Shown piece after piece: positions 4-20,635 of a DNA stretch of 59,791 nt. The notes below the pieces were generated by a model. It searched no databases. It saw only the letters and a list, made by a program, of their open reading frames with translations, and was not told where the DNA came from. Origin of the DNA: Deltaproteobacteria bacterium (GTDB lineage Bacteria; Desulfobacterota; Desulfobulbia; Desulfobulbales; Desulfobulbaceae). The stretch covers positions 1 through 59,791 of the forward strand of contig JAJRQC010000005.1 of the NCBI GenBank assembly GCA_024280455.1, written 5' to 3'. The translations under genes and the position numbers were made by a program. The stretch's first letter is position 1. Every line of letters begins with the position of its first letter.

Positions 4-140
4 CCTACTGTGTCAACTCCTGACGATAACATTTGTATTCTCCTATCGTTGTGTTTATACTGGAGAACATAAAGGCACGGCCTGCGCTTAACGTCAGAAA
101 TTCACCCTCACTTTCTGATGAAGAATTATAGTCTATGACA
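4..140. repeat. Terminal inverted repeat, left copy (137 bp)
   Basis: Bases 4-140 are the exact reverse complement of 59655-59791; position p pairs with 59795-p, and identity breaks at 141 (A here, C expected from base 59654). The left copy runs directly into the recombinase gene. Read in the recombinase frame, it encodes a plausible inter-domain stretch ending in LSDEEL, then a TAG at 129-131. Either this is a genuine repeat present in several copies, which stopped the assembly at both ends, or it is a fold-back artefact. Confidence 0.95.
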
Positions 141-674
141 AGTATCAGCGTACATAATATGACTTTACTGTCAATCTATTGCGGGCTTCGGGCGGGGGAG
201 ATATTTGCATTGCAATGGAGTGACGTTGATCAGGTTCACGGCCTTATAACCTTGCGGGATACGAAAAGCGGAAAAAGTAGAACAGTTAATATGCCATTGT
301 CGGTAAAAAAAATGTTTGCCGCTATGGCTTCGGTCGAGAATTCTGAGCTTGTTTTTCCAAGCAGAAACGGCAAGAAACGCAAACAAATTAGTAAAACCTT
401 TGATCGTACAATTAAAGAGTTGGGACTAAATAACGGTGTTCGGGACAGGAGGCAGAAGCTCACTTTTCATAGTTGTCGCCATACCTGTGCAAGTTGGCTT
501 GTCCAGGCCGGTGTTCCACTTTTTACGGTAAAGGAAATTTTGGGGCACAGCACCATTGCCCTTACTGAACGCTATTCCCATCTTGCTCCAAGTACCTTTC
601 GACAGGCAGCCGAGGCCATAGAGCAGGCTGGGGCTATTAGAGAGAATCAATCCAAGACAGTTAGTCTTCGTTAA
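135..674 (+). CDS. Tyrosine recombinase/integrase, catalytic domain (5'-truncated)
   Basis: This is a site-specific tyrosine recombinase that would cut and rejoin DNA to integrate or excise a mobile element. All the usual catalytic residues are visible: Arg in GLRAGE, the hairpin Lys in DTKSGKSR, HSCRH (H-x-x-R), LGHS, and the nucleophile Tyr in TERYSH. The N-terminal core-binding domain is absent. The same frame continues upstream through residues resembling the linker of these enzymes (RPALNVRNSPSLSDEEL), but it meets TAG at 129-131 and further stops at 27-29 and 21-23. No ribosome-binding site precedes ATG 135. The gene is therefore probably truncated, broken or misassembled at the terminal repeat. 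A tRNA-Lys about 1.7 kb downstream is the likely target of the parent element. Confidence 0.8.
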   Translation: MTSISVHNMTLLSIYCGLRAGEIFALQWSDVDQVHGLITLRDTKSGKSRTVNMPLSVKKMFAAMASVENSELVFPSRNGKKRKQISKTFDRTIKELGLNNGVRDRRQKLTFHSCRHTCASWLVQAGVPLFTVKEILGHSTIALTERYSHLAPSTFRQAAEAIEQAGAIRENQSKTVSLR

Positions 675-7079: not shown

Positions 7080-8819
7080 CTACAGCTCCCTGTCCAGGTC
7101 CTCCCACAGATCTTCGATCCATTGATACCGACTTGCGCTTTTGCCCGCCATGGCCTTTGAGATAATCCGTTCAAGTTCCGGCGAGATGTCAAGGGCTCGT
7201 GCAAAAGGGGCCTGTACGGCCTTTTTTATATGGAGCCAGGTTTTGATGCTTGAATTTTGCCGTTCAAAGGGCATGGTTCCGGTGAACATGCGATACAGCA
7301 GAACTCCAATTGTATAAATATCACTGCGCGGATCACCCCGCCTGCCCTGGATCTGTTCCGGTGCCATATAACGAAAATCTCCCTGGGGGCCCAGGCCGGA
7401 GGAGAGAATAACATCTGGAATCTCACGCCATGAGGCCAGTCCCATGTCGGTGATTTTTACATTTTCTCCGGTTTCACCATCAATAATCAAAAATATTTCA
7501 GGGCGCAGGTCATGGTGGACTATACCGGCAACGTGCAGGGTGGCAACAAGGTCACAGATCTGGGCGAGTATTGTTTTTCGTGCCGGCCCCTGGTTTCGGG
7601 ATGACTGCATCCAGTCGATAAGATCTGTTCCCTGCATCGGTTCCATGATCAGTATGTCGTCTTTATGTTCAATAATCTCCGGAATGCAGTTGTGCCCAAC
7701 AGTGCGCAGCATCTTGAGTTCCGCCCGCAGGCAGGTCGCATAGAGGGGATTGTTCAGGACCTGGTTAAAACCGATCTTTATGGAAACTTTTTTAGGATTA
7801 TCCTCCCCGTGCCCTTCATAGAGCCAGGAAAGGGTTCCTGCGGTTATCGGTGGCCCGAGAACATAACAGCCAACGAAGTTGGGTTGCAGGCCTGCCCCCT
7901 TGCGGGCGGCCGTAACGTATCTGGACAGGGTTTTGACCGATTGTCGCAGAAGATCGAGTTCGTCCCGGTTGTTCTGCACTTCACCATTTTCCTCAAGCAG
8001 GCCGCTGCTTACATGGGTCAAGCGCTTAATGACCAGCCTGTTAAAGAGAATACTCAGGAGAAAGAGGAGGGCTGCGGCACCTGCCTGAATGGCGACAAAG
8101 ACAACAAAGGAGTCGCGTTTGATCCGGGCAAAGGCACCTGCAACCGGTATCGAGATCGAGTTGATCCCGGCAAGATCTCCCTCTTTGAACCTGAATCCGC
8201 CTTTGGTCCCGTAACGCTTAATTAGCTCTGCCGGAGCCCGGCGGGCATCGCCGTGGCAGCGCAGACAACTCTTCTCCATATAGTCGGGTACAATGGTCAC
8301 AAAGGAGAGCTGACCTTCCCGCGGGACAATGCCGCGCCACAACGTTCTGGACCGGTCGTCTTCAAACCAGGAAAACATCTCCTCTTCAAAGTCGTCAGCC
8401 CTGTTTTGGGGATTCAACGGGTTGAGGGCTGCCCGGCGAAAAGTGTAGCCGGGCATTTTTTTATTGAACCGACGCATGATATTGAGGCTGACAAAGGTGG
8501 AGGACATGGCTTCAATGACAAATGTATCCCGTGATTCCAGCTTGGAAATGGTCGGTCGCAGCACTTCTTTGACATACTCACGAATGGATTCCACTTCCAG
8601 CAGGATAACCTCCGAGGTGTCGAGGGCATTCCGTATCAGGATGGATCGCAGGTGAACATAATAGAGACTTGAGGCCAGCAGACCAAAGCAGCAGACGAGC
8701 AGTCCGGCCCAGATGAGAAATTTGTTGCGCAGATTAAGATCGGTAAAATATTGCATCATTTTTTTTGTTTTTTTTAATTGTAAAGCCAACGCGGAGATAC
8801 GCAGATTTACGCTTTCCAT
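7080..8819 (-). CDS. Membrane Ser/Thr protein kinase with periplasmic c-heme sensor domain
   Basis: This ~579-residue receptor-type kinase has a transmembrane helix at ~27-50 and a periplasmic DUF3365/Tll0287-like domain with a c-type heme motif, CLRCH, near residue 184. A second membrane helix lies at ~240-262, and a cytoplasmic Hanks-type Ser/Thr kinase domain at ~320-575. Kinase residues seen: the ATP-binding Lys in VSIKIG, Glu in LRAELK, catalytic Asp in HHDLRPE, DMG in place of DFG, and MAPEQ. The metal-binding Asn of HRDLKPEN is replaced by Ile (HHDLRPEIF), so activity is uncertain. The heme suggests redox or gas sensing. It is the last gene of a six-gene operon, 14 bp after the phosphoesterase. 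The start is uncertain: ATG 8819 is chosen over TTG 8828, and neither has a strong ribosome-binding site. Confidence 0.85.
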   Translation of the reverse strand: MESVNLRISALALQLKKTKKMMQYFTDLNLRNKFLIWAGLLVCCFGLLASSLYYVHLRSILIRNALDTSEVILLEVESIREYVKEVLRPTISKLESRDTFVIEAMSSTFVSLNIMRRFNKKMPGYTFRRAALNPLNPQNRADDFEEEMFSWFEDDRSRTLWRGIVPREGQLSFVTIVPDYMEKSCLRCHGDARRAPAELIKRYGTKGGFRFKEGDLAGINSISIPVAGAFARIKRDSFVVFVAIQAGAAALLFLLSILFNRLVIKRLTHVSSGLLEENGEVQNNRDELDLLRQSVKTLSRYVTAARKGAGLQPNFVGCYVLGPPITAGTLSWLYEGHGEDNPKKVSIKIGFNQVLNNPLYATCLRAELKMLRTVGHNCIPEIIEHKDDILIMEPMQGTDLIDWMQSSRNQGPARKTILAQICDLVATLHVAGIVHHDLRPEIFLIIDGETGENVKITDMGLASWREIPDVILSSGLGPQGDFRYMAPEQIQGRRGDPRSDIYTIGVLLYRMFTGTMPFERQNSSIKTWLHIKKAVQAPFARALDISPELERIISKAMAGKSASRYQWIEDLWEDLDREL

Positions 8820-8833
8820 TTTTATCAAACGGG

Positions 8834-9574
8834 TTATTGCCCTTTTGCCAGTCGCCGGACCAGATAATCGGACTGGCCGGCCTCTTTGATTTTTTCGCCG
8901 GTCCGGATAAAGTCATATTTCAGCCTGCGAAATTCCACGGTGTTTTTTTTTGTGTCAAGGATACAATAGCAGGCCCGTGGATCACGGTCACGGGGCTGGC
9001 CAACCGAGCCGCAGTTGATGATTTGCCGTCTTTGCGGGTCGAGATCACAGGATACCCGGCCCTTTGGCTGGAAGAAATCGGTCTGCAAGAAATTTTTTCG
9101 GGTAATGATCACCGGCCGGTGGCTGTGCGAAACAAATAAAACATGTTCCCTGGTCGCCCGAAATGATCGCTGGGCGTATTTATTATTGATCACATACCGA
9201 TATGCCTCGGGATTGTAGGGATTGGCATGGGAAAACAGCATGTCACCCATGGGCAGGGTAGGCGGGCGGTTTTTCAAAAAAGAACTGTTTTCCTCTGTCA
9301 GCTGGTCAATGGTCCACAGAATCGCCCTGGTTGCATCTTTTGTCATCGCATAGGGTGAATAACGCCAGATGGCCGCGGCATCGTGATTGCCCAGCAGGCA
9401 GTTGAGCTTTGGCAGGGCGCGCACCCGTTCGATACACTGGTTCGGATTTGCCCCGTAACCGACAATATCACCGAGACAGAAGTAGCGGTGAATGGATTGG
9501 CCGGCCGCGTCGTTTAAAACGGTATCCAGGGCCTCCAGGTTGGCATGGATATCTGAAAACACGGCAAGGCGCAT
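8834..9574 (-). CDS. Calcineurin-like metallophosphoesterase
   Basis: This 246-residue cytoplasmic metallophosphoesterase has the two-metal signature in order: FSDIHANLEAL near the N-terminus, GDIVGYG at ~36-42, GNHD at ~62-65, and the later FSHANPYN, FVSHSHRP and NCGSVGQPRD blocks. The family includes protein phosphatases and nucleotide phosphodiesterases, and the sequence does not decide which. It overlaps the end of the upstream kinase gene (shared TGATG) and lies just before the c-heme kinase. A plausible inference is that it is the phosphatase that opposes the neighbouring Ser/Thr kinases. No signal peptide or membrane segment is present. Confidence 0.85.
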   Translation of the reverse strand: MRLAVFSDIHANLEALDTVLNDAAGQSIHRYFCLGDIVGYGANPNQCIERVRALPKLNCLLGNHDAAAIWRYSPYAMTKDATRAILWTIDQLTEENSSFLKNRPPTLPMGDMLFSHANPYNPEAYRYVINNKYAQRSFRATREHVLFVSHSHRPVIITRKNFLQTDFFQPKGRVSCDLDPQRRQIINCGSVGQPRDRDPRACYCILDTKKNTVEFRRLKYDFIRTGEKIKEAGQSDYLVRRLAKGQ

Positions 9575-11517
9575 CAGGCAGTTCCCGGGCTATCGGCTGT
9601 TGAACCGGTTTTCAAGGTGGTCGGGGATCGGTCTTCAATGTACTGCCTGATGGTGTGCAGTTGGAGCAGGGGACCGCCGCTGGGAATATCGGTTGCATAT
9701 ATCGGGCATGAGGAATCAAACAGATTGCCCAGTTGGCCGGGATCCCGGTGGCCGGACTCTCTTCCGATATGATCGCTGACCGCAAAGAGTTGTTGACGAA
9801 ATCTGCAGGAGCCGGGGAGGGCCTGATTGATGTAGATGGATTTCATGGTCTCGAGGTCGCCCTGAACGGCTGCGGCAAGCATTTTGCCGGCAATGGCGTG
9901 TACTTCATTATGGACCGGTTCAAGGATTGTAACCACATCCCGCCAGGCCGGATTGGGCCGTAACTGCAAGAGCCACTGTTTAATGCAACACTGGTGTTCT
10001 CTCATCTCCGGTGGAGTTGCCTTTTTTTGCAGCAGGGTCAGGGCCAGGTCGCCTATCCATTCCACATGGTCAAACCAGCAGTCGATCAGAAAAAGATCCA
10101 TGGCCAGTACCTGATCTTCAGAGAGCTGACCAGGATCACTCTCCACCAGTGTCCAGACCGTTTCGTTGTTGTCGGGCCGGGAAATGAGAACCCTGGCCGT
10201 GCTTTTTTCGGTAACGGTATCAACAATGGACTGCAGAAATAAGGAGTTTGGTTTGCGCGGCGGGCCCAGGACAATCAGGTCTGCTCTGATGTTTTCCGCC
10301 AGCTCAAGGATCGTTTCAATGACGCTGCCCCGAATCAAACGGATCGTGGGGTCGAGGTTGTAATGACGAAAGCGGAGGATGAAATCCTCAAGCCGCCGCC
10401 GGAACTGTTCGCCCTCGACCTCACGGCTGTACTGCAGGAGGTGGGAGTCATCTTCGTCCTCAATCACAAAGAGCAGAGTGGCGTCGCCACGATGGATCAG
10501 GGCCCGGTGCCGGACCTCTTCGATTACTGAATCGGCGGTGTCGTCATTGGCTACGGCGCCAAGGATACGGTAATGCTGTTGGCCGGAGGGTTTGATTTTT
10601 ATATCCGCTGGAAGGTTCAGAGAGGGGGTGGGTAAAAAGAAACCAAGCCATTGCCAGGGTTTTCTGCGTTCCTCCCCCTTGTCTGTAACCGGTAAGTCAC
10701 GGTAGCTTTGGAGGTCTTCGAAGAGACTTTGAGCATTGCGGTAGCGTTTTTTTGGATTTCGCTCCAGGCTCTTCAGAATAATTTGTTGAATCTGGGGCGG
10801 AATGTCGGCCACGTAATATCTTGGGGGAACCGGATCGACCTTGAGCCGCCAGCGGGTGGTGGAACGTTTTTTCGAGCGGGGAAAGGGCAGGTGACCGGTC
10901 AGCATTTCATACAACATCACCCCCAGACTGTACAGGTCGCTGCCAGCCAGGTGCTGTCTGGCGACAAGCTGTTCCGGGGCAATATAGTAGGGGGTGCCGT
11001 GGGGCGTGGAAAAGTCCTCAGCCAGCAGGTCATCCATTCCCTCCATTGTCGCCAGCCCGAAATCAATGAGTTTGACGGCCCCGGCGTCGGTCAGGATGAC
11101 GTTTTCCGGTTTGAGATCAAGATGACAGATTTTCTGGTCGTGCAGGTAGGTGAGCGCCCTGGCAAGTTGTTGAATGAGTGCCTGGGCGCTCTCAAGCGAC
11201 AGGGTTTTTCCCGGGCCGACAAGAGTTCGCAGTTCTTTGCCGGCGACGTATTCCTGGATGATGTACTGCCGTGATCGTTTGCGGTAATAAAAGCGAACCA
11301 CTCCGGGATGGTTTAAAAAACGACCGATACGTTCTTCATTCTGATAATGATAAAATCGCACGGGATGGTTGAGAATGTCGCCGAGCGGAACCTTGAGGGC
11401 GACGGTCTGGTCGGTCAGCAGATCAACCGCCCGGTAGATTTGGGCCATGCCGCCGCCATAGAGGATTTCCTCTATGGTAAAGGTGTCTATGGTGTCACCG
11501 ACCTGGAGTGTTGCCAT
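9574..11517 (-). CDS. Ser/Thr kinase-universal stress protein-CZB-like fusion
   Basis: This 647-residue cytoplasmic protein has three parts. Residues ~8-265 are a complete Hanks-type kinase: YGGGMAQ loop, VALKVP Lys, HLDLKPEN, DFGLA, APEQL. Residues ~320-460 are a Usp domain (RILGAVAND at its start, then ADLIVLGPPRKP and ARVLISRP). The C-terminal ~140 residues contain DHVEW, CCIKQWL and VHNEVH, whose order and spacing resemble the zinc ligands of chemoreceptor zinc-binding (CZB) domains. The architecture is unusual. CZB domains sense zinc or hypochlorite, so this may be a stress-regulated kinase; that is inference. The start ATG 11517 is chosen because GGAGG lies nine bases upstream. A GTG at 11526 would touch the ribosome-binding site. 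Confidence 0.82.
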   Translation of the reverse strand: MATLQVGDTIDTFTIEEILYGGGMAQIYRAVDLLTDQTVALKVPLGDILNHPVRFYHYQNEERIGRFLNHPGVVRFYYRKRSRQYIIQEYVAGKELRTLVGPGKTLSLESAQALIQQLARALTYLHDQKICHLDLKPENVILTDAGAVKLIDFGLATMEGMDDLLAEDFSTPHGTPYYIAPEQLVARQHLAGSDLYSLGVMLYEMLTGHLPFPRSKKRSTTRWRLKVDPVPPRYYVADIPPQIQQIILKSLERNPKKRYRNAQSLFEDLQSYRDLPVTDKGEERRKPWQWLGFFLPTPSLNLPADIKIKPSGQQHYRILGAVANDDTADSVIEEVRHRALIHRGDATLLFVIEDEDDSHLLQYSREVEGEQFRRRLEDFILRFRHYNLDPTIRLIRGSVIETILELAENIRADLIVLGPPRKPNSLFLQSIVDTVTEKSTARVLISRPDNNETVWTLVESDPGQLSEDQVLAMDLFLIDCWFDHVEWIGDLALTLLQKKATPPEMREHQCCIKQWLLQLRPNPAWRDVVTILEPVHNEVHAIAGKMLAAAVQGDLETMKSIYINQALPGSCRFRQQLFAVSDHIGRESGHRDPGQLGNLFDSSCPIYATDIPSGGPLLQLHTIRQYIEDRSPTTLKTGSTADSPGTA

Positions 11518-11553
11518 TTCTTCCACCCTCCGGCATCACCTTGAGCAATCCGC

Positions 11554-12669
11554 CTAAAAGCCAAGCAGTTTGGGGCAGCCCCGACAGGGGAGCGGCGGCG
11601 GATTTTCATGGAATGCCTTACGGATTGTCTTGCGGGCCTGTTCCAATTGTTCAATCCCGTCCATATCGTACCCTACTTTGCCGAGATAGTGCTGGTAAAT
11701 TTCCACCCGTCGCTGAAATTCTTTTCGAAATGTTCTGTAGGAATCCTGGTTCCAGAGAGTATCGAGATCATCTTGATGCAGATTCCCGAATCGAACCGGA
11801 ATTTTTTGTGCATTGCGGCAATCCGACAGCCAGGTAAACTCTGCACTTATGGGAGGGTTGAGGAATACACAGGGAGAAACACTGCCGTCGGCAGCAATAA
11901 AGAGGTTGTCAATGGGGTTTTTATCACAGATCGGCAGCAGGGAAGGGGTATTGGCCGGTAATCGCAACTCCACCCGGCAGAGCAGGGCAAGCAGTGTGGC
12001 CAACCGTGGAGCGGTTTTTTGTCTTTTTATTGGCTGTTGTTTTTCATCGACCGAGAAAAGCTGCATTTTGACCTGCTTTTCATCGGCTGCATGGGTGAGG
12101 TGGACACCGGCAAGTAGGTGGATGCCCCATTTGCGGCAGAGCAGGAGGCTGCGGCAGAGATCTTTCAGGGTTTCCGGCGTGAGCAGGTAGCTGATAGCCA
12201 GCACAGGTCTCTTTTTATTGAGCTGTTTTTTGACCCGGCTTACGGTGGTGAGGGTCCGGCGCAACAGATCAAAAGATCCGGTACCGCGTAATGAATCCTG
12301 GGTAAGCGGTCCGGCTCCGGCCATGGAAAAGGTTATCGCATCCACCCCGGATTTAAGCAGGCGATGGGCAAGATCGTCATCCATGATCGTGCCGTTACTG
12401 GTAAAACTTGCCTGGCTGCCTGCGGTTTTGGCCAGGGAAATGAAGGAGATCAGGTGCGGATGGAGTAGCGGTTCGCCCCAGCCCTGGAGATGGACCGCCT
12501 GGGTTCGGCTGAAAACATCTTTCAGTTTCTGAAAAATGTCCGGGTCAAGATCCCGCTCCTGCCAGAGTGATGGATGTGATCCACGCAGGCAGGTTGTACA
12601 ATGCAGAGTGCAACGGCTGGTCGGCTCGATCTGGAGAAGACCGTATTCAGGTTTTTTGTACTCAACCAC
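11554..12669 (-). CDS. Radical SAM protein with SPASM-like C-terminus
   Basis: This 371-residue iron-sulfur enzyme has the radical SAM cluster motif CTLHCTTC at ~19-26, followed by GWGEPLLHP and FTSNGT, typical of the SAM-binding barrel. The C-terminal third has cysteines (ICDKNP, SPCVFL, PCRGCPK) as in SPASM-type auxiliary-cluster domains, plus GNLHQDDLDTLW, a common element before that region. Such enzymes modify peptides or cofactors; the substrate cannot be read here and no precursor peptide is obvious. The gene starts with GTG 12669, preceded by AGGA. It lies 36 bp before the kinase-Usp-CZB gene in the same operon, an unusual partner for signalling genes. Confidence 0.85.
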   Translation of the reverse strand: MVEYKKPEYGLLQIEPTSRCTLHCTTCLRGSHPSLWQERDLDPDIFQKLKDVFSRTQAVHLQGWGEPLLHPHLISFISLAKTAGSQASFTSNGTIMDDDLAHRLLKSGVDAITFSMAGAGPLTQDSLRGTGSFDLLRRTLTTVSRVKKQLNKKRPVLAISYLLTPETLKDLCRSLLLCRKWGIHLLAGVHLTHAADEKQVKMQLFSVDEKQQPIKRQKTAPRLATLLALLCRVELRLPANTPSLLPICDKNPIDNLFIAADGSVSPCVFLNPPISAEFTWLSDCRNAQKIPVRFGNLHQDDLDTLWNQDSYRTFRKEFQRRVEIYQHYLGKVGYDMDGIEQLEQARKTIRKAFHENPPPLPCRGCPKLLGF

Positions 12670-12754: not shown

Positions 12755-13327
12755 CTATTTTATAAAGTACGCATACCCCGCGACAAGAATCAGAATGACA
12801 AGAACTTCTATCACCGTGATTTTGGTGAGCATAATGCTGATTTTCCGCTGTGACGGATTCATCTGCAGAAGCACTTTGTTCATGAGCAGGCGAAAAAAAA
12901 GAGTCCGAGGCGTGGTTGCGGTGTAGAGCCTGAGATATTCCTGAATCGCCCGGGTCCAGAGAAGAATATCCTGTTCAAGTGCATCGTCGGGTACTTCATC
13001 CGTATACCTGACCCGTAGCCGTGTCTTGTCCTCGGTGGTAAAAAAGAGCAGCTCCTGTATGCCGAAATCAAAAAGCGTGACCCGCATGAAGATCTCGCAA
13101 TCTTCCGGATCATCCTGAGCGGTGGAATCATCTAAATGCAGTCCCAGGGAGAATTCCTGGTCGGTGGCATAATCACGAAGTGTTACAAAAAGGGTGTTGT
13201 CACGTTGTTCGGACTGGTCGACAAACCAGTGCGGATGCAGGTGGAGGAGTTTGTTTGCATCCAGAATCCTGCCCGGATCCAGAGCTGATACCGTGGCCGG
13301 CAGGGCCAGATCGACAAAACGTTCCAT
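12755..13327 (-). CDS. Tail-anchored membrane protein of unknown function
   Basis: This 190-residue protein is not recognised. The first ~165 residues are soluble and acidic, with a pattern of alternating strands. The final ~20 residues (ITVIEVLVILILVAGYAYFI) form one hydrophobic helix ending two residues before the stop, so the protein is probably anchored by its C-terminus with the bulk in the cytoplasm. It begins one base after the stop of the upstream universal stress protein gene and is followed by the radical SAM gene after 85 bp. Co-transcription suggests a role in the same signalling or stress unit. No catalytic motif is evident. Confidence 0.65.
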   Translation of the reverse strand: MERFVDLALPATVSALDPGRILDANKLLHLHPHWFVDQSEQRDNTLFVTLRDYATDQEFSLGLHLDDSTAQDDPEDCEIFMRVTLFDFGIQELLFFTTEDKTRLRVRYTDEVPDDALEQDILLWTRAIQEYLRLYTATTPRTLFFRLLMNKVLLQMNPSQRKISIMLTKITVIEVLVILILVAGYAYFIK

Positions 13328-13328
13328 A

Positions 13329-13823
13329 TCAGTCCGTAGATGTCAGAGGCGGGGCAATAAGCAGCGGGCAGGGCAGGGCAGGGTGCAGCTTTGCCGGGTC
13401 GATACGGGCCCTGAGACCTTTTTCCATCTTCAGTTTAAACAGCCTGCGACTCTTCCGATACGGCCCGATCACGATCAGGTCACAGTTTCGTTTCTTTGCC
13501 TGGGCGGCAATGGTCTCTTCAATGGGACCGACTACGCCGGCGAAGACGGCCCCGGCCGCAGCCGGATATTTTTCTTTAATTCTCTGCCAGTCTTCTTCGT
13601 TTTCTTCCTGCATCTGCCGCTCCACATGATCAAGAAAGGTTGTGTGGGTTTTACTTGAATTGAGCCAGTCATCGCCGGTCATGGACTGCCAGTCCTGGTC
13701 AATGATGGTCAACACCGTAACCTGAAGCTCAGGTGCCTTTGCGCAGAGCTCTGTGAAGACAATGTGCTCAGCCTGCATGGCACCTGCTGTTCCATGGGTA
13801 CAGAGAAGAAGGGATGTAAACAT
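13329..13823 (-). CDS. Universal stress protein (UspA family)
   Basis: This is a 164-residue single Usp domain. It has the N-terminal strand FTSLLLCTHGT, a long central helix, and the C-terminal nucleotide-binding region DLIVIGPYRKS ending in PCPLLIAPP. The variant G-P-Y-R-K in place of G-x2-G-x9-G(S/T) is close to the IVLGPPRKP of the Usp domain in the kinase fusion three genes downstream, so the two may be related. It is the first gene of the minus-strand signalling operon. I prefer ATG 13823, as the frame extends to 13895 but those 24 residues are not family-like. Confidence 0.8.
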   Translation of the reverse strand: MFTSLLLCTHGTAGAMQAEHIVFTELCAKAPELQVTVLTIIDQDWQSMTGDDWLNSSKTHTTFLDHVERQMQEENEEDWQRIKEKYPAAAGAVFAGVVGPIEETIAAQAKKRNCDLIVIGPYRKSRRLFKLKMEKGLRARIDPAKLHPALPCPLLIAPPLTSTD

Positions 13824-13870
13824 ATTTAAAAAACACCTGGGAGGTCGCCCCACGGAAACGTGAGGGAAAG

Positions 13871-13907
13871 AAAATCCTTCCCGACACGGATACATGCCGG
13901 GAAGGAT
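13871..13907 (-). terminator. Intrinsic terminator
   Basis: This is a perfect 10-bp stem (ATCCTTCCCG with CGGGAAGGAT) with a 14-nt loop. On the minus strand it is followed by TTTTC. It lies between the 65-aa membrane protein gene and the universal stress protein gene, so it separates the transporter transcript from the signalling operon. Confidence 0.75.
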
Positions 13908-14249: not shown

Positions 14250-15878
14250 TCATTTAAGCACCACGTCTTTGACCAGCCATAAGACAACAAAGAATGACAG
14301 CACGGCCTTGGTTACCCCGGAAATAAGACCGATGGCCAGGGGCCAGCCGCCTGCCTGCAGAACTGCCTTTTTGGTAATCTGCATGCCGAGCCCGATCAGG
14401 CCGAAGGCAAAGAACCAGATCATGCAGTCGGTCAGGGTGGTGACGGTTTTTGATTTTTTATGGACCTGTTTGACGGCATGTTTGATAGCCCCCTTGACAT
14501 CTTTACTCAGGTTGATCTCTTTAGCCTTGGCAGCTGCCAGTACGGATTCGAGTTGGAACATCCGGTCTTCACCCTGCTTGTTGAAAACCTTTTTGTCGGC
14601 ACGGTTTTCATAGTTGCCGGCAATCTGGCGCTGGGCAATGAGGTCTGTGACTGCGGCCATCTGTTCCTCGGTCAGGCCTTTGATTTCGTTTGCCTTCAGG
14701 GCATCGTTTAAAGTCTCCCATTCTTTTTCAGTAACCTGGGTACGATCATTATAACTGAAATCAATGTATTTGCCCTTATAATGAGTGGGCGGTGAAAAGA
14801 GGCCCATGGAAGACATGGCAAAAAGCAGCAGAAAACCGAGAATAAAAATTGGAAACTTGTCGATGACAACTTCTTTGAAGGTCAATTTTTTTCCAGTCTC
14901 TTTTCCAAACCAGGTGGCCAGAACCAGGACGATGATCGGCAGGAAGAGAACACGGGTAATGTTGAAAATTTCAGCAACCTTCAGGGTCTTGATGTCAACT
15001 GCGTTGAATGCAAGTGCTGCGGCTGCAACCTGGGCGGAATTCAGGATGCCGGTTCCGGCCCAGGCCCCGAATTGAACCGGGTTCATGCCGGCCCAATGAC
15101 CGATGGTGGGAAAGACAAACATACAGATAATACCAAAGGAAAGAATGGTGCCGATGGTATAGGCCATTTCTTCACTTTTTGCCTTGACCACGGGGGCGAC
15201 CGCTACGGTGGCGGACACACCGCAGACCCCCATTCCTGCTGAGAGTACACCGGTCATGGTTTTCGGCTGTTTAAACAGGTTGCCGAGCCAGAGTACAAAA
15301 AAGACCGTTCCCAGGACAAAGGTGCCGACCAGAAAGATGGAGTAGGTGCCGAGTTTTGCCAGCTCGGCAAAGCTGTACCGAGCGCCCAGCATGATGACAC
15401 CCATCTTGAGAACAAAACGGGCGCATTTAACTCCGGAAGCGGCAAACTTGGGAATTCCGTAGGTGTTGGTCAGCAGAACACCGGCCAGCAGGCCGAGGAC
15501 AACATAGTTCAGGTTGAGAATTTTATAGATTTTGAAACCAAGAACCGGTTGCAGGCTCTGACTGATCAGTTTGACAACCGGTTCCAGATACCAGCGGATG
15601 GCCATGGCCATCAGCAGGATGAGAAGGATGCCCGGCAGTGGTTGCAGGACAAAGCGATCAATAATGGTGTCTCCGGGTTTGCGGATGGAATTGATGATTG
15701 CACCGAGTATGCCGATACCACCGCAGATAAAGCCCATGGCTATCTGAAGGTCGGAGGTTTTGGCTGTATGGAGATATTTCATCAGCGGATGCAACATGCC
15801 GCTGCTGGCAATCAATGCGTAAATGATCAGAAAACCGCTGATAATAAACAGCGGTTTGTTGTCCTGTGCCTGGGCCAT
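14250..15878 (-). CDS. YeiH-family putative sulfate exporter
   Basis: This 542-residue polytopic inner-membrane protein belongs to the YeiH/UPF0324 family, annotated as putative sulfate exporters. It has about 12 hydrophobic segments, with family-like blocks LGLLAGVLLTN, KMGVIMLGARYSF, GMGVCGVSATVAVAP, and GTGILNSAQVAAAA. A hydrophilic insert of ~110 residues (about 375-485, SFNDRTQ-like to VKGAIKHAVK) precedes the last helices and makes it longer than typical ~340-residue members. The start has a strong ribosome-binding site (GGAGAG). It is preceded by a 91-aa membrane protein gene on the same strand. The true substrate is not established for the family. Confidence 0.8.
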   Translation of the reverse strand: MAQAQDNKPLFIISGFLIIYALIASSGMLHPLMKYLHTAKTSDLQIAMGFICGGIGILGAIINSIRKPGDTIIDRFVLQPLPGILLILLMAMAIRWYLEPVVKLISQSLQPVLGFKIYKILNLNYVVLGLLAGVLLTNTYGIPKFAASGVKCARFVLKMGVIMLGARYSFAELAKLGTYSIFLVGTFVLGTVFFVLWLGNLFKQPKTMTGVLSAGMGVCGVSATVAVAPVVKAKSEEMAYTIGTILSFGIICMFVFPTIGHWAGMNPVQFGAWAGTGILNSAQVAAAALAFNAVDIKTLKVAEIFNITRVLFLPIIVLVLATWFGKETGKKLTFKEVVIDKFPIFILGFLLLFAMSSMGLFSPPTHYKGKYIDFSYNDRTQVTEKEWETLNDALKANEIKGLTEEQMAAVTDLIAQRQIAGNYENRADKKVFNKQGEDRMFQLESVLAAAKAKEINLSKDVKGAIKHAVKQVHKKSKTVTTLTDCMIWFFAFGLIGLGMQITKKAVLQAGGWPLAIGLISGVTKAVLSFFVVLWLVKDVVLK

Positions 15879-16275: not shown

Positions 16276-16621
16276 GGTGTTCCTCTATCCTGTTGGAAAT
16301 GATGAAAAAATTGCATAGTTTCGCCACATGTTCTTTTATAGAGCAATTTCAGGGCCTAAAAAAGATGTTCGGTTAAGTATTTTTGTGATTATCTGGTTAT
16401 TCCACTATGTTCACCGTTTTTTTTTTCTTTTTTTGGCCAAAGGATGTGAAAAAAATGTAGTGTTAAATCTGATTCTGGTGCATCCTTAAGGAGGCACCAA
16501 GGCTGTTTCCTGGACCACTATCCGGCCAAAGCATCTGGTGCGTCCGCTTGGATGCAGTGCTTGCCATGGGATGCAGGGAGTCTTTTCCGTCACCGTCTGG
16601 TATGGAGAGAAAAAAGTAAAA
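16276..16621. other. Divergent intergenic region
   Basis: This ~345-bp region separates the minus-strand transporter operon from the plus-strand histidine kinase gene and should hold both promoters. It contains the palindrome at 16477-16498 and a related TCTGGTGC(A/G)TCC motif repeated at 16475-16486 and 16534-16545. No gene is supported. An extended kinase frame from 16538 would add a CSACHG sequence, but it has no ribosome-binding site. Confidence 0.45.
16477..16498. promoter_or_regulatory. Palindrome upstream of the c-heme histidine kinase
   Basis: GGTGC-A-TCCTTAAGGA-G-GCACC is symmetric except for the A/G pair that flanks the 10-bp perfect core. It lies ~125 bp before the kinase start. 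It could be a dimeric regulator operator. The GGTGC half recurs at 16537-16541. Confidence 0.4.
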
Positions 16622-19180
16622 ATGAAGAAACAGGATAGCGCGTCACCTCAATGGGATATCTCTTCAATTGGGCTGCAATCGAAGTTTTTGCTTGGACTGG
16701 CCTGCATCTTCATCTGTTTTTGTGTGGTCGTGACCAGTTTGCTGTATCTCTATGAAAAAAAGCGGCTTGAAAATGAGGTTTATTACCAGACCGAACTGAT
16801 CATGGCGGCGGTGGAATCGACCAGGGCATACGTCAGAGATGTGCTCCGTCCAAAGATGTATGAAACGCTTGGTGATGAGACGTTTATCCTTGAAGCCATG
16901 TCCACCTCCTATATCAGCCGGGTGGTTATGCAGCGATTTCAGGAAACTCTGCCCTCTTTTGAATATCGACGGGTGGCGATCAATGCCATGAACCCTGATT
17001 TTGAAGCTGATGCCCTTGAGCGCGAAAAAATACAATATTTTTCCGAGAATCCAGCCATGAATGACTGGCATGGAATAGTCCAGTTCGAGGATCAGCCACT
17101 GTATATGCGTTTTCGTCCGGTTCGTTTTACAACCCCTTGTTTTCGCTGCCATGGTGATCCGGTCGATGCTCCGCAGACGATCATTGACCTGTATGGAAAT
17201 GTCCACGGATTCAACCAGCAGGCCGATGTGGTCAGCGGAGTGATCAGTGTAGGCGTTCCCGTCAACGTGGGGCTGGTTCCCATTGTCGAGGTGGCCTGGA
17301 AGGTTTTTTGTGCCACCTTTATCTCTGTTGTTTTCCTCTATGGCATTATCTGGTTTTTCTTCAACAAGCTGATTATTCGTGATCTGCGCGGTCTGCTGGA
17401 GATTTTTCGGGATAATCTGCGCGATGAACACGGCGTGCAGCTCTACGAACAGGCCAGGGCAACCGATGAGTTTGGGGAACTGGCCGCATCGGTGCAGATG
17501 GTTGCCCGGCATCTCCGTACAACCAGGCGACAGCTGGAGGACTATGCGAAAAACCTCGAGGAAAAGGTGAAAGACCGGACTCTGGCCCTGCAGCGCTCTG
17601 AACAGAGCCTGCGCGAAAAAGTGATTACCCGGGGTCAGGAGCTGCGAACTTTAAACACCATCAGTGAGCTGATCACCCAGTCGGTCTATCTTGCCGATAT
17701 CCTCCCTAAGGTCCTGCAGCAGGCCCTCAAGGTGATACCGGCAGCCGGAGCGGGGATGTATCTGGTTGATCGGGAAAAGGCCATGCTTGTTCTGCAGTGC
17801 CGGGAAAGTGCGGATGCACTTGCAGAAACCATTCCCTTTGATGCCTCGGTCTGTCTGCCCTTTCTTGACGAGAAACGGCTTGATTTTGATGGATTTATTC
17901 AGGAGGCGGCCTGTGGCCGACTCAGTTTGACCGGGGAAAAGGCGGTTCTGATGAATAACTTTAACGTTCCGCTCTGCTGCCGCGGCCAGGTCATGGGGGT
18001 GATGACCTTTATCGGCGATGACCTGAAGAACGTTGACGCCCAGCTCCAGGAACTCTTATTCTCCATCGGCCACCAGATCGGGATCACCATTGAAAGTCTG
18101 CAGAATATCGCCCGCCTCATTGACAGTAAGGAACTGCTGCAGACGGTGTTTGACGGGATTACCGATGTGGTGATCCTTCTTGATCCGGAGTATCGGATAA
18201 AGATGGTGAACAAGGCATTTCTGGACCAGCACGGCCTGCCGCTTGAGGAGATTTTGAACCGGTCGCTTTCGGAACTCCCCCTGAAAAATCCCTGTCCGTT
18301 CACCGTCTGTAAAACTCCGCTTGCCCCTCTGCCCCGCTCGCCGGTGGTTGAACAGGTGCAGGGGCAGGATGGCAATATTTATGAAGTGACTTTTTATCCT
18401 CTCTTTTCCGAGAAAGGCGAAGTTCGGAATGTTGTCTGCTATGCCAAGGATATTACAGAGAAAATTGAGGTCGAGCGGCGTATTCAACAGACAGAGAAGC
18501 TGGTGTCGCTGGGCCAGCTGGCAGCCGGGGTTGCCCATGAAATCAACAATCCGCTGGGAATAATCCTCTGTTATACCGACATTCTGCTTGAGGACAGTCT
18601 TGATCTCAATATCCAGGCCTGCGAGGATGTCAGGGTTATTGAAAAACATGCCCGTTCCTGCCAGAAGATTGTTACCGATCTGCTCAATTTTTCCCGCAGT
18701 CAGAAAACGGATAAGCGGAACGGTTCAGTGAATCGGGCGATTGAAGAGGTCGTGGCCCTGGCAAAGCAGCAGTTTATAAAACAGAAAATTCACCTGAGTC
18801 TGCACCTTGACCGTGAACTGCCCGATATATTTCTTGATCAGGACAGAATGAAACAGGTGTTCCTGAATTTGCTTATGAATGCGGCTTATGCCATCGGGGA
18901 GGAGGGGACGATCCTGATTGTCACTGGCTATGATCAGCCGGCCCACCGGATACTGGTGACGGTCGAAGATGACGGTCAGGGGATCGAGGATGAGATCATG
19001 GCCAAAATTTTCGATCCGTTTTTTACGACAAAAGCCCTGGGCAATGGAACCGGACTCGGGCTTTCGGTGAGCTATGGTATTGTTCAGGATCATGGCGGAG
19101 ATATTTGCGTGGAATCCCAGCCTGGAAAGTGGACCCGGTTTACCATAACACTGCCGGTCAACAGGGCTGTTTCGGCATGA
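16622..19180 (+). CDS. Sensor histidine kinase with periplasmic c-heme domain, GAF and PAS
   Basis: This is an 852-residue membrane histidine kinase. In order: TM helix ~15-40; periplasmic DUF3365/Tll0287-like domain with the c-heme motif CFRCH near residue 173; TM helix ~228-250; HAMP-like and coiled-coil region to ~340; GAF-like domain ~345-495; PAS ~500-600; HisKA with phospho-acceptor His in [10 protein letters not shown] (~638); HATPase with DDGQGI and [11 protein letters not shown]. The heme suggests sensing of redox state or a diatomic gas outside the membrane. It is paired with the sigma-54 response regulator 39 bp downstream. Its sensor is closely similar in layout to that of the Ser/Thr kinase at 7080-8819. 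ATG 16622 is chosen with GGAGAG upstream. Confidence 0.9.
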
Positions 19181-19219
19181 TCCCGGAACGGTAAAAGACA
19201 GGAAACAAGACAATAAAAG

Positions 19220-20635
19220 ATGAAAAGCGAGACACCTCTGCGAAATATATTGATTATCGACGATCAGGCGGATTTGCTCAAGGGGCTGAAACGGATGCTC
19301 GGGCGCGAATTCCCTGACCTGTCGATTCATACCTGCGTCAACACCAGGGAGGCCCTGGATCTGGTTGCCGGTAAATCCATAGACCTTGTCCTGCTCGATA
19401 TTCAGATGCCGGAGATGAACGGTTTTGAAATGCTCAACCGGCTGCAGCGGGTTGATAGCTGCATAACCGTTATCATGATGACCGGGTATGGCAGCATAGA
19501 AACCGCGGTTGATGCGATCAAGGCCGGGGCCTACGATTTCATCACCAAACCCTTTGACAAGGCCGGCCTGTTTCGTACCGTGCGCAAGGGCCTTGAGCAT
19601 AACCTGCTGATCAGGGAAAATATTCACCTGCGCAGGCGGATCCGGGAAACCGAGTCTTTTGCCGATTTTGTCGGTGAGTCCAAGCCGATGCAGCGTCTGT
19701 ATCATGCGATCCGGACCACGGCTCGTACCGATTACACCGTCTTGATTCGTGGTGAGTCGGGTACCGGCAAGGAGCTCACGGCAAGGGCTATTCACAGCCT
19801 CAGCAAGCGGCGCAGTAAACCTCTTTTAATGGTCAACTGTCCGGCCATCCCCGAACATCTGCTGGAAAGTGAACTGTTCGGCCATACCCGTGGGGCCTTT
19901 ACCGGGGCGGAACGCGATCAGAAAGGGCTGTTTGTCGAGGCCGATAAGTCCACCCTCTGCCTTGATGAAATCGGTGACGTGCCGGTTGCGGTGCAGACCA
20001 AGCTGCTGCGGGTGTTGCAGGAACATGAGGTCAAACCGGTGGGCAGTCCGAAAACCCGGTCCGTGGATGTACGGATCATTGCCTCGACCAATCGGGAGCT
20101 GGAAAAGAAGATTCGTGAACGAACCTTTCGGGAAGATCTGTTCTACCGGTTAAACGTGGTTACCCTGCATACACCTTCTCTTGCTGAAATCCGGGAGGAT
20201 ATTCCGCTGCTGGTCGACCATTTTACCAGAAAGGTCTGCACTGAGCTCGACCTGCCTGAAAAGCAGTTTTCCCTGGATGCGGTTGATGAGTTGACCATGC
20301 GGCCGTGGCCGGGCAATGTCCGGGAATTACAAAATGTGATCCGTGGCGCCGTGCTTTTTTGCCCTCATGAGATTATTGATGCCCGCTATCTGCGCAGGCC
20401 GGAGCGTGAAGATCGGGGCAGCATTGCCTCGGCGTCGGTAGTGCAGCAGTACAAAGAAGCCAAGGACAAAACCATCAGCAGCTTCACGCTTAAGTATGTG
20501 TCCGATCTGCTGCGGAAAACCGGTGGAAATGTCTCCAGAGCGGCGGCAATGTCGGGCTTGACCCGGGCAGCCTTACAGAAAATCATGCGGCGTCACCAGA
20601 TCGTCGCAGAGGAATACCGGCAGGAAAAAACATAG
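19220..20635 (+). CDS. Sigma-54-dependent response regulator (NtrC family)
   Basis: This is a 471-residue transcription activator. The receiver domain is residues ~8-125, with IIDDQAD and the phospho-acceptor Asp in LVLLDIQMPE (~58). The AAA+ domain is ~145-385, with Walker A GESGTGKE, the sigma-54 contact loop GAFTGA, and LDEIGDVP. A Fis-type helix-turn-helix follows at ~425-465 (GGNVSRAAAMSGLTRAALQ). It is the obvious partner of the preceding c-heme histidine kinase. Its target promoters must be of the -24/-12 type; one strong match lies at 58934-58949, but a link is only inference. Confidence 0.92.
   Translation: MKSETPLRNILIIDDQADLLKGLKRMLGREFPDLSIHTCVNTREALDLVAGKSIDLVLLDIQMPEMNGFEMLNRLQRVDSCITVIMMTGYGSIETAVDAIKAGAYDFITKPFDKAGLFRTVRKGLEHNLLIRENIHLRRRIRETESFADFVGESKPMQRLYHAIRTTARTDYTVLIRGESGTGKELTARAIHSLSKRRSKPLLMVNCPAIPEHLLESELFGHTRGAFTGAERDQKGLFVEADKSTLCLDEIGDVPVAVQTKLLRVLQEHEVKPVGSPKTRSVDVRIIASTNRELEKKIRERTFREDLFYRLNVVTLHTPSLAEIREDIPLLVDHFTRKVCTELDLPEKQFSLDAVDELTMRPWPGNVRELQNVIRGAVLFCPHEIIDARYLRRPEREDRGSIASASVVQQYKEAKDKTISSFTLKYVSDLLRKTGGNVSRAAAMSGLTRAALQKIMRRHQIVAEEYRQEKT

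Follow-up and report, generated by a model that had tools for sequence, protein, structure and literature searches.

Can a bacterial Ser/Thr kinase of the Hanks type take its input from a zinc-binding domain of the CZB type? This question is raised by a gene located in a 59,791-nucleotide stretch of DNA (the window; contig JAJRQC010000005.1 of assembly GCA_024280455.1) from a bacterium of the Deltaproteobacteria, the product of which combines a kinase domain, a universal stress protein (Usp) domain and a C-terminal part resembling CZB. The interpretation that we favour, and which in our judgement stands a slightly better chance of being right than wrong, is that of a zinc- and redox-tuned Ser/Thr kinase, encoded in a cassette together with a phosphoesterase and a heme-sensor protein. 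What appears to be new here, to judge from the open-licence literature listed, is the CZB tail on a kinase-Usp protein and the conserved phosphoesterase/heme-partner cassette; the kinase-Usp core itself has already been annotated elsewhere.

Gene and domain layout

The gene (positions 9574-11517) lies on the minus strand and constitutes a single open reading frame (ORF) of 647 amino acids (aa), which starts with ATG at 11517 (GTG at 11526 is also possible) and ends with TGA at 9576-9574, this stop codon overlapping the ATG of the next gene by one base. An earlier note on this DNA, made from the sequence alone, had correctly delimited the gene without naming a strand. A reading of the same segment in frame 1 of the plus strand was ruled out, since it is interrupted by stops.

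The kinase, Usp and CZB-like content described in that note was recovered by Pfam. The Hanks-type kinase domain (PF00069; aa 17-263, positions 10729-11469, minus strand like all features below unless indicated) was matched with an E-value of 6.8e-46 and 157.2 bits (cut-off 31.7), the Usp domain (PF00582; aa 317-446, positions 10180-10569) with an E-value of 2.2e-10 and 41.7 bits (cut-off 24), and the CZB family (PF13682) over aa 484-545 (positions 9883-10068). The His-Cys-His-x3-His spacing, also pointed out earlier, is exact. The four predicted zinc ligands are His484 (10066-10068), Cys510 (9988-9990; also the predicted redox thiolate), His536 (9910-9912) and His540 (9898-9900), which were assigned from the sequence and its relatives, together with a structural alignment in the case of His484 and a profile comparison for the other three. 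Past the Pfam CZB match, the protein ends with a helix and tail (aa 555-647, positions 9577-9855) containing the conserved residues Cys571 and Cys604. The top NCBIfam matches of the protein are kinase models, far under their cut-offs; within aa 482-557, the diguanylate cyclase model PRK09894 was matched (E 0.0021), a weak result which points in the same direction as CZB.

Identity of the C-terminal domain

The match to PF13682 covers profile positions 1-62 of 64 (E 2.1e-5). When the profile search of the C-terminus proposed in the earlier note was run on the window protein and 12 relatives, 11 of the 13 C-termini gave PF13682 at E <= 0.01, and at this threshold none gave any other Pfam family, which makes a chance match to CZB unlikely. 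A single hhalign comparison of the 13 C-termini with 10 ordinary CZB domains of the phylum (probability 94.8%, E 5.6e-8) aligned all four ligand positions, i.e. the His, the Cys and the His-x3-His pair. The comparison alignment (A5) omits two sequences present in alignment A4, namely L067 (a wrongly chosen stretch close to the end of a contig) and L050 (a near-duplicate of L049).

A model of the C-terminus built from 7 sequences is a helical bundle (mean pLDDT 79.1), which aligns with the crystal structure of the CZB domain of Escherichia coli DgcZ (3t9o) with a Z score of 10.3 and an rmsd of 2.5 over 114 of 120 residues, a result with which unrelated four-helix bundles tie. The structure prediction suggested earlier as a check on the domain thus gave a helical bundle that fits CZB, but fits other four-helix bundles equally. 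His484 occupies the position of His22 of DgcZ, provided that the structural alignment is gap-free before that point. It is followed at +3 by Trp487 (Trp is present there in 9 of 30 aligned family members), and an extra conserved Trp at this place is reported for diguanylate-cyclase CZBs in the excerpts available from a 2021 census of the domain (PMC8262984). The evidence for the identity of the tail as CZB is good, though not clean.

Distribution of the family

A protein query followed by profile searches yielded 32 distinct kinase-Usp-CZB proteins, all from the order of the window (which we take to be Desulfobulbales), where they fall in the window's own family and one further family (f104). 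The records of the six named relatives are those of Desulfobulbus or Desulfobulbaceae. A protein retrieved by different searches was counted once, and L111 was taken to be identical with L013 (all three profile scores are equal). In the class, a profile match at E <= 1e-10 was obtained in 37 of the 257 genomes searched. Each of the 37 is a member of the window's order, and their matches include at least one (G375, locus L108) that does not represent a kinase fusion. The search of the phylum gave matches in 7 of 395 genomes, only two of these matches being kinase fusions (those at L108 and L112-L115 are without a kinase); at most eight candidates were scored per genome, and infrequent members may have escaped detection. 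Beyond the phylum, the search was limited to one contig scan, which reached close relatives, and one plasmid scan.

We also considered whether CZB kinases are a common architecture. Ninety other CZB loci of the phylum (several from one genome and some cut by contig ends) were examined, 30 of them as supplied by the search and 60 picked from its longer match list blind to architecture. None of them contained a kinase match anywhere in the fetched stretch, and a chemoreceptor motif was found in some frame in 76; on the basis of this sample, the idea that CZB kinases are common was rejected. The genome search revealed one other CZB in the genome of the window, on a chemoreceptor-like protein (L001). 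In one relative (protein L017, locus L135, G154:C211) the match to the C-terminal tail profile runs past a stop codon and into another piece, which may reflect a frameshift or a fault of assembly in this genome.

Conserved residues

The kinase residues Lys42, Glu61, Asp134, Asn139 and Asp152 are kept in all 31 rows of the family alignment that cover the kinase domain (HLD replaces HRD), and as judged from the sequence this kinase carries the complete catalytic set. In the Usp domain, Arg421 is present in 32/32 rows. It was placed at the second Gly of the ATP-binding loop, the motif of which we take to be G-2X-G-9X-G(S/T). Because Arg421 sits where ATP-binding Usps have Gly, the domain is unlikely to bind ATP in the manner of those proteins.

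The zinc ligand set HCHH is complete in 22 of the 31 readable rows; L033 is cut by a contig end, with only HC-- readable and the downstream gene not testable. In a midpoint-rooted tree of the kinase and Usp parts, with 16 of 28 inner branches well supported (L018, which is without the kinase part, was excluded), intact sites occur on both sides of the root, and the intact zinc site is therefore probably ancestral. The two cysteines of the tail are conserved to about the same degree as the zinc ligands (Cys571 in 28/31 and Cys604 in 27/28 readable rows) and persist in relatives devoid of ligands.

The conserved cassette

The gene that overlaps the kinase gene encodes a calcineurin-like metallophosphoesterase (positions 8834-9574, Pfam), which is the next recognised gene in all 31 testable loci, the window included. 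The possibility that it is a chance neighbour was considered and rejected: when 29 further loci with the phosphoesterase (L199-L227) were taken as the best from 72 genomes of the phylum that gave a match, no kinase was detected in the flanks fetched for any of them (approx. 1.5 kb or less).

The third gene (positions 7080-8828, start codon uncertain) encodes a protein that contains hydrophobic segments, a Tll0287-like c-heme domain (127.3 bits; cut-off 24.1), a CXXCH motif (aa 188-192) and a kinase-like domain. It follows the metallophosphoesterase gene in 27 of 29 testable loci, again counting the window. The two loci without it, L013 and L107, are a divergent pair; the contigs of L011 and L091 end before it. 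The Tll0287 (DUF3365) domain is a c-heme Cache domain, for which the excerpts available from one source describe NO-sensor traits in one member and redox-type behaviour in another (PMC12889525). An alignment of 24 rows, including that of the window (partial genes from L018, L109 and L110 were excluded), revealed that CXXCH is present in 23/23 readable rows, as is the kinase Lys, and that both Asp residues are kept in 21/21. The Asn of the catalytic loop (HxDxxxxN) is replaced by Ile or Val and the DFG motif by DMG, in each case in 21/21 readable rows. The kinase-like domain of this heme partner looks catalytically weakened as far as its residues tell, although the loss of the catalytic-loop Asn alone does not prove it inactive; the third gene possibly represents a family of heme-sensing pseudokinases.

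Three further genes are conserved upstream of the kinase gene. They encode a 190-aa protein with a hydrophobic C-terminal segment (positions 12755-13327; no usable match in Pfam or NCBIfam), a stand-alone Usp (positions 13329-13895; most alignments with homologues begin near residue 22, and the actual start codon may therefore be farther downstream) and a PF03601 (Cons_hypoth698) protein (positions 14250-15878). All three are present in 17 of the 20 loci with long flanks. Two of the other three loci start too late on their contigs, and L134 is without these genes. The proteins that they encode are the first candidates for substrates of the kinase. An optional member of the cassette, encoding a radical SAM/SPASM protein (positions 11554-12669), is located between the 190-aa gene and the kinase gene in the window, as it is in 7 of the 20 relatives with long flanks. 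The close relative L010, with 84% identity to the window protein, does not have it. The best NCBIfam matches of this protein are metalloenzyme/tungsten-cofactor maturases, far under cut-off.

Promoter and terminator scans around the cassette gave numbers close to those expected from shuffled sequence (11 against 7.9 +/- 3.0 and 13 against 11.2 +/- 3.7, respectively). Farther upstream, on the plus strand (positions 16538-20635), the window encodes a histidine kinase, in which GAF and PAS are combined with a Tll0287-like heme domain, and, after it, a sigma-54 response regulator. In a fair share of the relatives, fragments matching this histidine kinase are likewise found upstream of the cassette and in the opposite orientation to it. 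A phage-integrase-family ORF is present near the window edge (positions 135-674, plus strand).

Proposed mechanism

The CZB bundle most likely binds one zinc ion via His484, Cys510, His536 and His540, and would form the input module of the kinase. Under oxidising conditions the zinc would be lost, through oxidation of the Cys thiolate or a falling supply of zinc, leaving a looser bundle; this would alter the activity of the kinase, most likely by relieving inhibition as in DgcZ. In the latter enzyme, according to the census excerpts, the zinc-bound CZB is inhibitory and the zinc-free form active, and HOCl oxidises the Cys, thus relieving inhibition by zinc (PMC8262984). In the abstract of a 2026 preprint, CZBs are argued to read redox via the availability of zinc (PMC13370339). 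It is by analogy with such systems that we attribute zinc binding, and the direction of control, to the kinase. Oxygen, its products or NO, and not neutrophil bleach, would be the signals met naturally by an anaerobe.

The metallophosphoesterase from the overlapping gene would undo or counterbalance the phosphorylation. The product of the third gene is predicted to be a membrane protein with a c-type heme sensor (of redox or NO), placed in the periplasm by analogy with its family, through which the active kinase would receive a second redox signal, from outside the cytoplasm. In this scheme the phosphoesterase would act on the products of the kinase, and the two kinase proteins would interact. 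A bolder version of this scheme, which we regard as unlikely, is a two-compartment redox circuit, in which a periplasmic c-heme pseudokinase, sensing NO or the redox state outside, and a cytosolic zinc-thiolate CZB, sensing the redox state inside, would converge on one Hanks kinase answered by a dedicated phosphoesterase; lineages without the zinc site would keep the heme input only.

Alternative explanations

Several results weigh against a zinc/redox-tuned kinase. Some concern the identity of the tail. The CZB score of the window protein lies on the curated threshold of 29.4 bits (25.3 for the whole protein, 28.4 for the trimmed C-terminus and 29.5 in the genome search). The helix-3 signature CX(L/F)GXW(Y/L), which the census excerpts give as one of four attributes for automatic CZB calling (sequences that failed it were reviewed by hand; PMC8262984), is absent from the window protein, where CCIKQWL is found and the signature Gly is replaced, and occurs in exact form in only 4 of the 32 rows (L011, L017, L033 and L110); for this reason we refer to the tail as a divergent CZB-type domain. 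The ligand-binding domain of PcaY_PP aligns with the C-terminus model at Z 10.4, and a Foldseek search with this model found nothing reaching E 0.001, with chemoreceptor four-helix bundles in the top ranks and 3t9o at rank 21 (E 1.3). Since chemoreceptor and unrelated bundles match equally, the fold alone cannot decide whether the tail is CZB. When PDB sequences were searched with a profile of the C-terminal alignment, 11 rows up to E 10 were returned, with a designed helical protein as the best (E 1.3e-4) and no CZB chain among them, which we read as a search lacking reach. The tail might thus be a four-helix bundle other than CZB, with an accidental arrangement of His and Cys, as the low whole-protein score, the incomplete signature and the equal Z scores of unrelated bundles would allow; however, the hhalign result, in which every ligand position is aligned, the 11 of 13 C-termini that match CZB only and the four relatives with the exact signature make this explanation very improbable.

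The other objections concern the function of the bundle. Nine of the 31 readable rows are without one to four of the ligands, with the kinase kept: L008 (HCHR), L009 (HCHQ), L031 (QWFV), L032 (QSFA), L098 (HSHQ), L101 (HCYQ), L102 (YSHQ), and L103 and L104 (both QCHH). At least five changes are needed on the tree to account for these losses. Read from the alignment, the zinc site has been lost several times in lineages that retained the kinase, and zinc is therefore not needed by every member of the family. Asp479 and Trp481 (32/32 rows), as well as Tyr562 and Pro568 (31/31 readable rows), stay while the ligands vary, and for this reason the bundle seems to serve a role beyond zinc; together with the repeated loss of the zinc site, this is the main weakness of the sensor interpretation. 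The full-length structure model is also poor (mean pLDDT 68.5, pTM 0.49), and the contacts between domains therefore cannot be read from it. A mainly structural or docking role of the bundle, as a dimer interface or a site for the heme partner or the phosphoesterase, with zinc acting only as a stabiliser and the partner controlling the kinase, would account for the losses and the invariant residues, and also for the fact that L031 and L032, which have lost all four ligands, retain the whole cassette (loci L120 and L121). On the other hand, the full ligand set occurs on both sides of the tree, looks ancestral and is mostly kept, and L031 and L032 have lost all four ligands together, as would be expected for one functional site (these are sister rows and represent one event). 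We consider such a role rather unlikely, though it has to be taken seriously. The roles could also be reversed, with the heme partner being the real signalling kinase and the kinase-Usp-CZB protein its effector or target in one cascade. The near-constant presence of the partner, its invariant CXXCH and the retained Lys and both Asp residues are compatible with this cascade. It is nevertheless improbable in view of the Ile or Val at the Mg-binding Asn position and of DMG in place of DFG, the complete catalytic set of the kinase-Usp-CZB protein in 31/31 rows, and the two loci (L013 and L107) that have no such partner.

Comparison with known systems and origin

The pattern of three His and one Cys in the window protein is the same as that of DgcZ and of chemoreceptors of the TlpD and McpA type (PF13682). 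The domain is C-terminal as in TlpD, and the Trp at His+3 is shared with the diguanylate-cyclase subgroup of CZBs. The window protein differs from all of these in its output, a Hanks-type Ser/Thr kinase with Usp. The excerpts of the 2021 census, which comprised 10,140 CZB sequences, name seven subgroups with no kinase among them, i.e. soluble and membrane chemoreceptors, two kinds of diguanylate cyclase, EAL, CheW and CZB-only proteins (PMC8262984). A CZB kinase was also not evident in the titles and abstract beginnings among the matches listed from the open-licence PubMed Central literature. The same literature, again among the matches listed, yielded no description of a CZB tail on a kinase-Usp protein or of a conserved cassette in which a phosphoesterase is joined by a heme partner resembling a pseudokinase.

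The earlier note had considered the fusion of a CZB-like domain to a Hanks kinase plus Usp non-standard. Only the CZB tail is unusual in this architecture, since proteins with the same kinase-Usp order are annotated in alphaproteobacteria as "bifunctional serine/threonine-protein kinase/universal stress protein". On a plasmid of Rhodobacter sp. CZR27, such a kinase (36% identity to the window protein over the kinase domain) is adjoined by a metallophosphoesterase 37% identical to that of the window, and on a plasmid of Pseudoroseomonas cervicalis a kinase-Usp gene is likewise adjoined by a metallophosphoesterase of the same family. These two kinase-Usp proteins are shorter (488 and 469 aa; the last residue of Usp is 460 and 462, respectively), and no CZB was matched in them at E <= 0.1. 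Among their annotated plasmid neighbours, as shown in an incomplete gene table, no partner of the heme-kinase type was present. In Shinella, a related kinase adjoins a phosphoesterase by coordinates (kinase match only). As kinase-Usp proteins beside a phosphoesterase and without CZB exist in alphaproteobacteria, the CZB tail is the new part. To judge from these few records, the kinase-Usp protein and the phosphoesterase look like an older pair, to which the CZB tail and the heme partner would have been added later in the order of the window.

The third-gene protein has its heme-binding domain and the CXXCH motif in common with sensors of the sCache_heme (Tll0287/DUF3365) type, but combines them with a Ser/Thr-kinase-like domain. 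As fusions, the excerpts available on this family name histidine kinases, methyl-accepting chemotaxis proteins (MCPs), GGDEF/EAL enzymes, a guanylate cyclase and a cytochrome_c-like domain (PMC12889525).

Conclusions

The bacteria that carry this cassette are probably anaerobes, as suggested by the family named in the related records, for which oxygen is a threat. The natural variants that have lost zinc ligands with the kinase intact constitute built-in controls, so that what the zinc site does can be tested directly, and the heme pseudokinase-like neighbour, together with the phosphoesterase, provides a compact and equally testable kinase/phosphatase circuit. The CZB domain is a zinc and redox switch that has been studied well, and the papers considered here describe it on chemoreceptors, CheW and cyclic-di-GMP enzymes. 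If the interpretation proposed here is true, the Hanks kinase would be a further major output of this domain, and bacterial Ser/Thr kinases would gain a metal-thiolate input.

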